Positions 10,631 to 14,823 of a stretch of DNA of 64,000 nucleotides are shown here, piece after piece. The translations under genes and the position numbers were made by a program. Under the pieces are notes generated by a model that saw nothing but the letters and a program-made list of their open reading frames with translations, did not search any database and was not told the DNA's origin. Source of the DNA: Desulfofundulus salinus (GTDB taxonomy: Bacteria > Bacillota > Desulfotomaculia > Desulfotomaculales > Desulfovirgulaceae); NCBI RefSeq assembly GCF_003627965.1, contig NZ_RBWE01000001.1, positions 2,024,312 through 2,088,311 of the forward strand, in the 5' to 3' direction. The first letter of the stretch is position 1. Each line of letters begins with the position of its first letter.

Positions 10631-11032
10631 AAAGTTAATTTCCCCCTGCTGGGCTATCTGGAACAGGCTCTGGAAGAGGATACAGTTTTATACGTTAAAC
10701 AGGTAACCAGTGTAGGTAGAAAAATTTTTACCCATTGTGGTTTTGCCCGGGATTGTAGAATTATTTAAAATGTTAAATCAAAGTATCGTATATTCAAAGA
10801 AAGAATTACCTTGACACCACCCGTGCTCACAAAAGATGTGTGGAGCCAGGTGTCCACGGGCATAATGGAGACGCCAAGACTAGAAAGCAGGATTATGCTG
10901 TTATTGTTCTCGGTATTCTGTTGCTGATAGCAGCTAAGATTTTCGCTTAAATGTTTTTAAGGTATTGTTAGTTCGCCAGGACAGGGGGGAAATCCCTGTC
11001 CTGAACCAGTTTTTGGATTCGTGGAATAACAC
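10631..11032. other. 400-bp spacer with a 9-bp hairpin and one possible tiny reading frame
   Basis: No convincing gene. A plus-strand frame from GTG 10840 to TAA 10950 would give 36 residues ending in a membrane-like segment (YAVIVLGILLLIAAKIF), but it lacks a ribosome site. A stable hairpin follows: AGGACAGGG (10978-10986) with CCCTGTCCT (10994-11002) and a weak T-rich tail. TTGACA occurs at 10811 with no good -10 element. Confidence 0.4.
10978..11002. terminator. 9-bp hairpin between the convergent zinc-ribbon and tusA units
   Basis: A perfect 9-bp stem with a 7-base loop. On the plus strand GTTTTT follows after 7 bases; there is no T-run on the minus strand. It could separate the convergent transcripts. 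Confidence 0.5.
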
Positions 11033-11260
11033 CTAGCCAGTCTTGGTAACGGTAATTTCCCAGGTGCCCGAACCTGTCTTTTTGATCTCACAGGGGTACC
11101 CAACATTTTTTGCCCAAAGCGGGATGTTTTCCGTGGCCGAGACGCAGTCGGTCACCACCCGCAGTACATCGCCCACCTTCAGTTCTTGCATTTTTTTCTG
11201 TGCCTTAATGAGGGGAAATGGACAAGCAAGCCCCAGAGCATCTAAATCGATCACCGCCAT
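11033..11260 (-). CDS. TusA family sulfurtransferase
   Basis: A 75-residue sulfur carrier. The signature LDALGLACPFPLIKAQK places the persulfide-forming cysteine at residue 13, next to the conserved proline. Proteins of this family linked to YeeE-type permeases (YeeD/TsuB) take sulfur from imported thiosulfate. It is the last gene of a three-gene minus-strand unit after the two permease halves, with AGGAGAGG at its start. The context makes thiosulfate uptake or sulfur relay the best guess. Confidence 0.9.
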   Translation of the reverse strand: MAVIDLDALGLACPFPLIKAQKKMQELKVGDVLRVVTDCVSATENIPLWAKNVGYPCEIKKTGSGTWEITVTKTG

Positions 11261-11287
11261 TGTTTTACCTCTCCTTTCCTTAATATC

Positions 11288-11812
11288 CTAGGAAAAGTAC
11301 TTCCAAAGCAGCCAGCTACCCAGGCCAGCCCCCAGCCCTACAAAGGCAAGGAACACCCACCCGGAAAGGCTTTGCGAGGGAAGGAGACCAAAGTAGGCCC
11401 CCAAATTACAAGTACCAGCTATACGCCCCCCGTAACCCATTAAAAAACCACCCAGGATAGCAGCCAGAAGCTGCTTGCGAGAAGCTATCTTGCGTAGCCG
11501 GAACTCCGAAGCCGAAAGGGCGGCCAGCAGAGAACCGGCCACCACGCCTAAAGTAAGAAGGCTACCAGCGTCCCGCCAGAACCCTCCCGCCAGGGCTTTG
11601 GCCTGACTTCCCCGAAAGAAACTCCAGGAAGCAGGTTCAAGACCAAGATATTCCCCTACCCATGCTCCCCAATAAAGCAGAGAAGTTTGTACTCCAACCG
11701 TTTTACCAAAGGCAAAATACAAGCACGCTAGCAAACCTAGGATACTCCCGCCTAGCCAGATAGGCCAGGGCTTCTCTAGAGCTCTCCATAAACTACTACG
11801 CTTGGTGGACAT
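11288..11812 (-). CDS. YeeE/YedE (TsuA-type) permease, C-terminal half
   Basis: A 174-residue membrane protein with the second YeeE/YedE signature, GFLMGYGGRIAGTCNLGAYF, whose cysteine is of the kind implicated in thiosulfate transfer in TsuA. In single-chain TsuA this follows the segment encoded here by the upstream gene. The start ATG has its own GGGAGGTG site and the two genes overlap by 17 bases in different frames, so the split looks like a translated two-gene form and not a recent frameshift. Confidence 0.86.
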   Translation of the reverse strand: MSTKRSSLWRALEKPWPIWLGGSILGLLACLYFAFGKTVGVQTSLLYWGAWVGEYLGLEPASWSFFRGSQAKALAGGFWRDAGSLLTLGVVAGSLLAALSASEFRLRKIASRKQLLAAILGGFLMGYGGRIAGTCNLGAYFGLLPSQSLSGWVFLAFVGLGAGLGSWLLWKYFS

Positions 11813-12443
11813 TGCGGCTCAACACCTCCCGCACCTTACGCCAGTGAACCAGTAAGTAAATAAACACGAGCAGGCCCAGCTGGAGCAAAAGCGCTAGTCC
11901 CCATCCCAGGGCCTTGGGGAAGAATACTTTCACTGCTCCCGGGAAAGCAGCTTCCCACCAATCGATGGTACGCGCCCCACCTAAAGCCCCGATTATAAAG
12001 CAAATGAATACTACTAGGTGAGATAACGACCCTTCACCCAGCCGTACCAGCATGCCTGAGGCGCAGCCGCTGGCCAGAACCATCCCCACGCCAAAGAGGA
12101 AGGCGCCAATGGCTACGTAACCACCGGCGGGAGAAACCTTCAATGGGACTTCTTTACCGGCCAGGAAAGCACTGTACTGGAGGGCAAAAAAACCAATGCT
12201 GGCAACCAGTAAGATATACCACAGGCCCCGAAATTGTGCAGCATCACGCAGTAGCCACAGGTCCCGGAAGGCCGACGCCAGACAAAGTCTTGAGCGCTGC
12301 AGCACAAACCCCAGGATCAGACCCACCAACCAGGAAACAGCTAAGAGCGAGGATTGCGATTTAAGCGCAAGGCCAAATACTATGACGCCAGCGAAAACAG
12401 AGATAGCCCAGGGCCATTGCTTCCTGGATGGTTCTTTGGGCAT
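11796..12443 (-). CDS. YeeE/YedE (TsuA-type) permease, N-terminal half
   Basis: A 215-residue membrane protein with RSRLCLASAFRD and GMVLASGCASGMLVRLGEG, both typical of the first YeeE/YedE repeat, including conserved cysteines. Together with the next gene it totals about 389 residues, close to a one-piece TsuA. The ATG at 12443 follows AGGAGGG; an upstream ATG at 12479 is poorer. First gene of the permease-permease-TusA unit. AT-rich DNA upstream (12480-12596) probably holds the promoter. Confidence 0.86.
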   Translation of the reverse strand: MPKEPSRKQWPWAISVFAGVIVFGLALKSQSSLLAVSWLVGLILGFVLQRSRLCLASAFRDLWLLRDAAQFRGLWYILLVASIGFFALQYSAFLAGKEVPLKVSPAGGYVAIGAFLFGVGMVLASGCASGMLVRLGEGSLSHLVVFICFIIGALGGARTIDWWEAAFPGAVKVFFPKALGWGLALLLQLGLLVFIYLLVHWRKVREVLSRNVHQA

Positions 12444-12596
12444 AAAAAAAGTCCCTCCTTTCCTGTTGATCATGGGCAAGATGAAAAAACGAGTTCGCTT
12501 TTTATGTATAAATCCCTTCTATGGGGTCGATAAAATATTTATAACCTGAATCCCGGGAGAATTAAAAATGTTTATAACCATAAATTCTTAGCTGGC

Positions 12597-12902
12597 TTGA
12601 ACAAAACAAAAAAGTCTTCATTGAAACTCACGTTTGTATATCCTGCAGGGGAAAATTCAAGTAACGGTACTCGCCGTAAAAGCGGTAAAGTTGTCGGCAG
12701 CCAGGAGGGTTCGTTTACCGTTCGGAGCGAAGGTCTGGTTTATTGGCTGCGTCTTCTTTCCGGTACAAATGACCCGGTTTACGGGGGACTCGCGGTGATA
12801 ATTGCGCTTTTCGCCGGAGTAGCAATTGGGATGGTTTTTAGCTGGATTGACTGCATACTCGGAAAAGGAGCGACCGGTGGCGTCGAAACGCATGCACATT
12901 AA
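12597..12902 (+). CDS. Hypothetical single-pass membrane protein
   Basis: A 101-residue frame from TTG. The first half is polar and basic (TRRKSGKVVGSQEGS). The second half has one clear membrane segment, YGGLAVIIALFAGVAIGMVF, then a short tail rich in G and H. No good ribosome site is seen at the TTG and no family is recognised. The hydrophobic segment argues for real coding. It lies 131 bp before the catalase gene on the same strand. Confidence 0.4.
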   Translation: MNKTKKSSLKLTFVYPAGENSSNGTRRKSGKVVGSQEGSFTVRSEGLVYWLRLLSGTNDPVYGGLAVIIALFAGVAIGMVFSWIDCILGKGATGGVETHAH

Positions 12903-12975
12903 ACTTCTCGGGGTACCGGCTGCTAAAAGGTGTGCGGCAAGGGGTGGTAAGGACCTCGAGAGATCGCTTTGTTGC

Positions 12976-13031
12976 ATAACAGCCTCCTTTGCGAAAAAGA
13001 ATAATAAAAACAGTACCAAGGAGGCTGTTAT
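12976..13031 (+). promoter_or_regulatory. Stem-loop sequestering the ribosome site of the CotJC-type gene
   Basis: ATAACAGCCTCCTT (12976-12989) is the exact reverse complement of AAGGAGGCTGTTAT (13018-13031), which contains the Shine-Dalgarno sequence of the gene starting at 13034. The 14-bp stem with a 28-base A-rich loop should block initiation when folded, which suggests translational control. An antisense or opening factor is not visible. Confidence 0.75.
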
Positions 13032-13033
13032 CA

Positions 13034-13666
13034 ATGTTTTATCATCGAAAAAACGAATTTTTATATCCATTGAGGGTAGCAGGTCCAGACCCAAAGTTTG
13101 CCAGCATGTTGATGGAACAGTTGGCGGGTCAAAACGGCGAGTTGGCTGCCGGGATGCAGTATATCATTCAGGGTCTTAAATGTAAAAATGCAAAGATAAA
13201 GGATCTCCTTTTAGACATTGGTACTGAGGAATTGAACCACATGGAAATGGTAGCTCATATGATAGGGCTCCTTGTAGGGGAACAAACCAGCACTGCTTCG
13301 CCTGAGGAGTTTGCCTTCCAACTCCTCGGTGGAGGTGGACCTTTGTGGATCAATTCCATGGGTTCACCCTTCTCCAGCACTTATGTTGACGCTGTTGGTG
13401 ATATAGCTGCTGACCTGCAATCCAATATTGCGGCTGAATTCCGGGCCAAGGCTGTATACGAACGACTGTATCGCCAGACTAAAGACCCGGCAGTTCAGGA
13501 TTTTCTCAAGTTCCTAATTAGCCGGGAAGAAGCTCATGCCAATTTGTTCCGTCAAGCATTGGATGAGGTTCAGGGCCAGGGTGTCCTGAAGGACTTTGTT
13601 GATACCAGCTACTCCAGGCAATATTACGATCTTTCACAACCAGGACAATCCTACCGGCTTACTTGA
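13034..13666 (+). CDS. Manganese catalase family protein, CotJC-like spore coat component
   Basis: A 210-residue ferritin-like di-manganese catalase homologue. Metal-ligand motifs are visible: GTEELNHMEMV (E..H) and SREEAHANLFRQA, plus QNGELAAGMQYI. Bacillus CotJC has the same size and is a spore-coat protein. The ATG at 13034 follows AAGGAGG; the longer frame from 12989 runs back into the hairpin. The unusual 14-bp stem over its ribosome site is described separately. No cotJA or cotJB homologue is adjacent. Confidence 0.9.
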   Translation: MFYHRKNEFLYPLRVAGPDPKFASMLMEQLAGQNGELAAGMQYIIQGLKCKNAKIKDLLLDIGTEELNHMEMVAHMIGLLVGEQTSTASPEEFAFQLLGGGGPLWINSMGSPFSSTYVDAVGDIAADLQSNIAAEFRAKAVYERLYRQTKDPAVQDFLKFLISREEAHANLFRQALDEVQGQGVLKDFVDTSYSRQYYDLSQPGQSYRLT

Positions 13667-13699
13667 TCATCTTATGGATCTTTGCAGAAGGAACATTAC

Positions 13700-14255
13700 G
13701 GTTTAGACAGCCGCTGGGGGAATTTCACGACCTTTAATTGCTGGTATAATTTCATCGGGTGGGTTTTTTCTCCTCTCTTTACATGTAACTGCCGGGTGGG
13801 TAGGAGGGAAGGAATGCCCACCCTTTCTAATGCGGGCAACCGTGGGGTCCGCCGCCACGGGTGGTCTGGAGCAGGTTTCTTCGTACCATGCAGAGGTTTG
13901 GGCTGAGATTTGGATTGCCCTTGTTCCTGCTCTGTATTTGCATCTTTGATAGCTACGTCTGCCGTATGAGATGGTGGAACTGTTGGAAGCCTCACACTCT
14001 TCTTTCAAGCAAATAATCCGCTTTGTCGCATACTGACTTGGGCACAGCATGGCCAGGCTTACGGCCGCGGTTTTTGTGAGCCAGGAACGCCACACCCTCT
14101 TTTTGCATGCCTCCTTTAAGGCGTTTTACCTGACGTTCACTGAGACCGAGAAGCTGTGCTGCCTGTCGGACTGTTAATTTACCGCTAAGAACCTGCTCCA
14201 TAACGAACACCCGTTTTACTTCCTTTGCACTCAAGAAAATGTCTCCTCTCTCCAT
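13700..14255 (-). mobile_element. ISNCY-type transposase remnant (core deleted)
   Basis: The minus strand from 14255 encodes the N-terminal 87 residues of an ISNCY / IS1202-like transposase: MERGDIFLSAKEVKRVFVM, then the helix-turn-helix TVRQAAQLLGLSERQVKRL and HKNRGRKPGHAVP. The frame stops at 13992. In an adjacent frame (ending near 13700) the typical C-terminal tail of this family appears, with KKPAPDHPWRR. The DDE catalytic core, about 250 residues, is missing. This is a deletion derivative and cannot move by itself. Confidence 0.8.
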
Positions 14256-14406: not shown

Positions 14407-14823
14407 ATGAGGCTTAATCAGGCTACAGATTACGCTTTACGGGCAGTGCTTTACCTGGCCCAATTACCTCCCGGAGAGGTGGTAGAGGCACAGGCTATCG
14501 CCACGCAGGAATGCATACCCATGCGTTTCTTGCTGAAGATTTTACGCCTGCTTACCAAGGCGGGCATCGTAGATTCCTACCGCGGCGTGGGTGGAGGCTA
14601 CGCCCTGGCCCGGCCGCCCGCGGAAATCACCCTGTTGGACGTGTTGGTGGCCGTGGAGGGACCGGTACAAATAAACCGTTGCCTGGTGGACGCAGAATTT
14701 TGCAGCAAGCAGGGGCCACCCCACTGTCCCGTGCACCGGGCCCTGTCATCCATTCAAGAAACCCTCATCCGGGAATTTAAGCGCTATAATTTTGCCCAGC
14801 TTGCCGGCAAAATTCCCCCGTAA
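14407..14823 (+). CDS. Rrf2 family transcriptional regulator with three-cysteine cluster
   Basis: A 138-residue winged-helix regulator. The N-terminus MRLNQATDYALRAVLYLA and the wing GVGGGYALARPPAEI are typical of Rrf2/IscR/NsrR. Cysteines 92, 99 and 107 (RCLVDAEFCSKQG, HCPVH) can bind an iron-sulfur cluster, so it probably senses Fe-S status, nitric oxide or redox. The ATG follows GAGGGG. A small thioredoxin-like frame follows 40 bp later. The targets are unknown. Confidence 0.9.
   Translation: MRLNQATDYALRAVLYLAQLPPGEVVEAQAIATQECIPMRFLLKILRLLTKAGIVDSYRGVGGGYALARPPAEITLLDVLVAVEGPVQINRCLVDAEFCSKQGPPHCPVHRALSSIQETLIREFKRYNFAQLAGKIPP

Follow-up and report, generated by a model that had tools for sequence, protein, structure and literature searches.

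Hairpins that hide a Shine-Dalgarno (SD) sequence are a standard output of switches worked by small RNAs, proteins, helicases or temperature. Another arrangement, fold-back inhibition, has been demonstrated experimentally for the IS10 transposase and for early transcripts that carry phage T4 late genes, where the ribosome-binding site (RBS) is hidden in read-through RNA and exposed in RNA from an internal promoter. The catalase gene described here, from the heat-loving sulfate reducer Desulfofundulus salinus, may follow the same logic, but those cases concern mobile-element and phage genes and rest on experiment, whereas ours is predicted only. Upstream of sigG in Bacillus subtilis lies a hairpin with over 20 pairs, which earlier work cited in PMC5942855 proposes as a barrier to the translation of read-through RNA; RNA made from the sigG promoter itself cannot form it (PMC5942855). 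A second, small sigG hairpin at the RBS lowers expression 2-4 fold (PMC5942855). The catalase leader resembles the large sigG hairpin in that, in a spore-forming Firmicute, a complement within the leader would hide the RBS of read-through RNA and, if the start site proposed below is right, in that RNA from the gene's own promoter would lack the hairpin; it differs in that sigG has 20 or more pairs and a studied upstream operon, whereas here the promoter and read-through are putative and the gene is a catalase (PMC5942855). With the small sigG hairpin the catalase leader shares an RBS-occluding hairpin in the 5′ leader, but the sigG structure has five pairs (-6 to -9 kcal/mol), is tuned and is conserved in Bacilli, whereas the catalase stem has 14 pairs and is unconserved (PMC5942855). 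The mechanism considered here is an ordinary one, comparable arrangements being already known.

The window is the whole stretch of 64,000 nucleotides of the D. salinus genome that was analysed. The features that concern the catalase leader are:

12597-12902, plus strand: upstream open reading frame (ORF) whose match to Alph_Pro_TM (PF09608) is confined to the C-terminal end; read-through may come from it
12876-13033, plus strand: leader, common to D. thermosubterraneus only, at about 87% identity (coding sequence 97%)
12974-13005, plus strand: candidate promoter from consensus scans, sigma-A-like or sigma-F-/sigma-G-like, with a putative start at about 13010-13014
12976-12989, plus strand: left (anti-SD) arm ATAACAGCCTCCTT
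12990-13017, plus strand: A-rich loop of 28 nt, in which CGAAAAAGAATAATAAAAACAGTACC is unchanged in D. thermosubterraneus and the first two bases differ
13018-13031, plus strand: right arm AAGGAGGCTGTTAT, in which 13018-13024 are the catalase SD AAGGAGG, 9 nt 5′ of the ATG at 13034
13034-13666, plus strand: Mn catalase (Mn_catalase, PF05067, by Pfam) of 210 aa, stand-alone, outside any cotJ operon

The arms are complementary at 14 of 14 positions across a gap of 28 nt, and the exact arm pair is unique in the genome, which bears out the initial annotation of a perfect 14-bp stem over the ribosome site of the catalase. The same annotation had placed the only complement of the SD region 28 bases upstream; it is indeed a single exact copy in the genome, but 28 is the gap between the arms. 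Its judgement that such a match is improbable by chance also stands. Perfect inverted repeats of at least 14 bp with a loop of at most 60 number two in the window, against 0.017 per dinucleotide-shuffled window, and the catalase has the longest perfect SD-region complement within 90 nt upstream among 631 gene starts (runner-up 13), these starts having been called by a simple heuristic rule in an 864-kb sample, about 30% of the 2,886,683-base genome. When gene starts are ranked by duplex energy, the catalase SD pairing is fourth among the 48 in the window, and by energy alone it is not unique there. Folded locally, the stem has an energy of -25.3 kcal/mol (z = -6.0 against shuffles), and the 101 nt around the stem also fold stably with the SD paired (-26.8 kcal/mol, z = -4.1). 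A genome-wide set of such hairpins, or a regulon, was considered and set aside, since CCTCCTT-N12-42-AAGGAGG has just three occurrences and its control two, and a search of the genome for a second copy of the leader, as a repeat or mobile element, found none. The leader also holds a possible second hairpin, TCTCGGGGT / ACCTCGAGA (window 12906-12914 / 12953-12961), whose arms are unchanged in D. thermosubterraneus, yet folding there is no better than that of shuffles.

Thermodynamic predictions with standard parameters place a stable helix over the SD in RNAs that carry both arms. When the RNA begins at 12960 or 12976, SD pairing is predicted at about 0.97 for 37 °C and 0.96 for 60 °C, and in long RNAs it stays near 1 from 37 to 75 °C (about 1.0 at both 65 and 75 °C); for RNAs starting at 12986-13008 it is about 0.25. 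The stem would thus probably block translation of any long transcript containing both arms. Translational silencing, as first proposed, holds in these predictions for RNAs with both arms but not for those starting inside the loop, which are predicted to be free. A start within the loop that bypasses the stem, also suggested at the outset, is plausible: a promoter-like site overlaps the left arm, and the loss of that arm would lower the predicted SD pairing from 0.97 to 0.25.

Our leading explanation, to which we give a probability of roughly 0.38, is that the stem insulates the catalase against read-through. RNA starting upstream of about 12977, whether it is read-through out of the upstream ORF or is made from a distal promoter, would pair its SD in the stem and be closed to ribosomes. 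The -35 and -10 of a proximal promoter would overlap the left arm and the loop, so that its RNA would start in the loop without the left arm and be freely translated, and the hairpin would shield the catalase from stray transcription in the manner of sigG. The complementarity and the occlusion and release of the SD in predicted folds are computed; the reading adds to them a presumed promoter, start site, read-through and selective maintenance. In its favor are the stem over the SD, the extreme case among the gene starts sampled, the predicted fall in SD pairing for starts past the left arm, the overlap of the sigma-A-like candidate with the arm, the retention of GCATA and an A-rich -10-like stretch, unchanged and in the same place, in D. 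thermosubterraneus, the sigG precedent (PMC5942855), and the presence of a same-strand ORF upstream (12597-12902) with no terminator-like site found between it and the stem. In a stronger form, which we consider unlikely, a promoter embedded in the hairpin would leave translation open only to RNA begun at the catalase's own start, which may be forespore-specific, and closed to all other RNA; the origin of the transcript rather than its amount would then decide expression of an oxidative-stress gene in an anaerobe.

Several observations count against insulation. The sigma-A-like candidate, ATAACA-N18-AATAAT, agrees with the consensus at 9 of 12 positions across the left arm and loop, and the sigma-F-like (GCATA-N15-AAAAAGAATA) and sigma-G-like (GCATA-N18-AAGAATA) candidates have two mismatches each; sites that pass these criteria occur at that distance in 6-13% of gene starts, and each of these matches, with its two or three mismatches, would be weak evidence taken alone. 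In D. thermosubterraneus the sigma-A -35 is not kept. The weaker hairpin of that species and the lack of such a leader in D. australicus, described below, also count against insulation. A promoter of the SASP type was also considered for the catalase, inspection by eye of the genus's SASP promoters having given the form GHATR-N17-18-CATNHTA, and was rejected on the poor fit of the candidate site at -10. The upstream ORF, for its part, looks like a truncated remnant.

The catalase itself matches its family model above the cut-off (PF05067, E = 3.4e-55, 187.5 bits, cut-off 27), but the identification of its product as the spore-coat catalase was not supported. The likeness to CotJC, the spore-coat Mn catalase, is that of a common Pfam family; the D. 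salinus genome carries a complete cotJA-cotJB-cotJC operon at a separate locus (L103), and its CotJC is only about 38% identical to the stand-alone enzyme. A spore-coat identity is doubtful because the cotJABC operon is another locus. A search that covered 113 genomes from the order, 398 from the phylum and a contig collection found close relatives of the catalase in only five, three of Desulfofundulus and two of Ammonifex type, and it is absent from the three other Desulfofundulus genomes searched. In the window, TusA, two sulphur-transport genes and the Alph_Pro_TM fragment (10631-12902) lie between a small Zn-ribbon-like gene and the catalase, and an N-terminal fragment of an ISNCY-family transposase lies downstream (13992-14255, minus strand). 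In D. australicus and D. thermosubterraneus the small Zn-ribbon-like gene adjoins the catalase. D. thermosubterraneus may have deleted the segment matching 10631-12902, since the apparent last codons of the Alph_Pro_TM fragment remain there.

The leader is present in only two of the genomes covered by the same search, so that helix conservation and covariation, which support an RBS-sequestering hairpin without strictly defining it, can be sought in one relative. The left arm of D. thermosubterraneus, ATAGTATCCTCCTT, keeps the CCTCCTT core and differs at three of the seven other arm bases. Two of the differences give G-U pairs and one a mismatch, and one G-C pair is gained through a change in the flank. 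Lack of conservation of the left arm, which the initial annotation had named as grounds for refutation, is therefore nearly what is seen, the core being kept in the one relative available. The compensatory changes in relatives that it had suggested looking for do not occur, because the right arm of D. thermosubterraneus is unchanged, and a conserved stem with such changes was rejected across the set, in which five genomes hold a close protein relative and two the leader. The D. thermosubterraneus hairpin is weaker (-15.2 kcal/mol, z = -2.3), and when five substitutions are placed at random in this stretch, 45% of the sets, or 68% with the core spared, pair as well or better. The comparison thus lends no support to selection on the stem, which may still act, since the pairing is no better than random substitutions leave. 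In D. australicus the catalase directly follows the small Zn-ribbon-like gene, with neither the leader nor such a hairpin. The catalase leaders of Ammonifex thiophilus and of a probable A. degensii also pair with their own SDs; they were rejected as covarying homologues, the left arm of A. thiophilus being the tail of an upstream ORF (INPSSRGKLEA*) and the A. degensii leader having a similar ORF tail, read by eye. About 90-100 nt 5′ of the catalase, the D. thermosubterraneus leader has a run of 14 G (L002:1399-1412) in place of the GGGGTGG of D. salinus; this may be a tract prone to slippage or an artefact of assembly.

The foremost alternative, which we regard as nearly as likely as insulation, is that the hairpin has no selected function: the CCTCCTT core would be the SD of a decayed divergent frame, facing that of the catalase, and the other bases would have come to match by chance or through a template switch that made the two arms alike. 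It draws on the minus-strand reading of the left arm:

12968-12989, minus strand: AAGGAGG-CTGTT-ATGCAACAAAG (SD, then ATG), in a frame not conserved in D. thermosubterraneus

On that strand D. salinus reads AAGGAGG-CTGTT-ATG and D. thermosubterraneus AAGGAGG-ATACT-ATG, the SD and ATG being kept and three of the five spacer bases differing; the arms may have begun as two facing SDs, because the interspecies differences fall in the minus-strand spacer. All three arm differences lie within 4 nt and all perfect the D. salinus stem, a pattern expected of template switching, which is known to create and repair hairpins (PMC8794818), although in a comparison of two species the changes may have run in either direction. 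The minus-strand RBS string AAAGGAGGCTGTTATG also starts an unrelated ORF in another genome, and the divergent AdhE and Zn-ribbon SDs in the window likewise pair, over 9 bp. However, the 14-bp match exceeds what facing SDs alone would yield. A true divergent minus-strand gene was rejected, the frame having no homologues and no Pfam match and being broken in D. thermosubterraneus, and any anti-SD arm is automatically an SD on the minus strand; for these reasons we list a facing-SD origin among the alternatives and do not claim it as a result. In the window, the pairing divergent SD regions are those of an adhE-like gene (10316, minus strand) and the small Zn-ribbon-like gene (10415, plus strand), with a duplex of -27.9 kcal/mol. 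The ORF in the other genome, which belongs to the same order (L102:1460-1520), has AAAGGAGGCTGTTATG as its RBS and the complement GCCTCCTTTG upstream.

It is unlikely that the stem is a permanent damper, such that the normal transcript has both arms and the hairpin keeps translation low, as does the small RBS hairpin of sigG. The near-complete SD pairing predicted for long RNAs at 37-75 °C and the sigG precedent (PMC5942855) would suit this explanation, but a stem this strong would be expected almost to abolish translation and not to tune it, and a promoter-like site lies within it.

We think it very unlikely that the stem is a regulated switch, opened by a small RNA, a protein, a helicase or temperature. 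Although SD masking is a usual output of such switches, the arm sequence has no other exact occurrence in the genome, and a search of 12400-13900 against Rfam (E up to 5) gave only a chance-level match to snoR9, whose 13.1 bits fall well below the gathering score of 90. Opening by temperature, which had been among the triggers first suggested, is improbable, and an RNA thermometer was rejected, because the SD is predicted to be buried even at 75 °C and the helix closed at 65 and 75 °C, above the optimum of 55-60 °C given, within a growth range of 45-70 °C, in the description of D. salinus 435T (PMC11206085). A DNA operator, in which a protein binds the two inverted copies with centres 42 bp apart, is highly improbable: inverted repeats over a promoter-like site are typical of operators and an Rrf2-family regulator gene lies nearby (14407-14823), but the motif has no further exact copy in the genome and the left copy is changed at three of 14 positions in D. 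thermosubterraneus.

The locus illustrates that a striking perfect stem can stand without any support from conservation, and that the sequence of an anti-SD arm fits an SD on the other strand just as well. If insulation against read-through is the true explanation, the catalase would be another gene, beyond sigG, that ignores read-through RNA by means of a hidden ribosome site, and the gene so guarded would be one for an oxidative-stress enzyme in a strict anaerobe.
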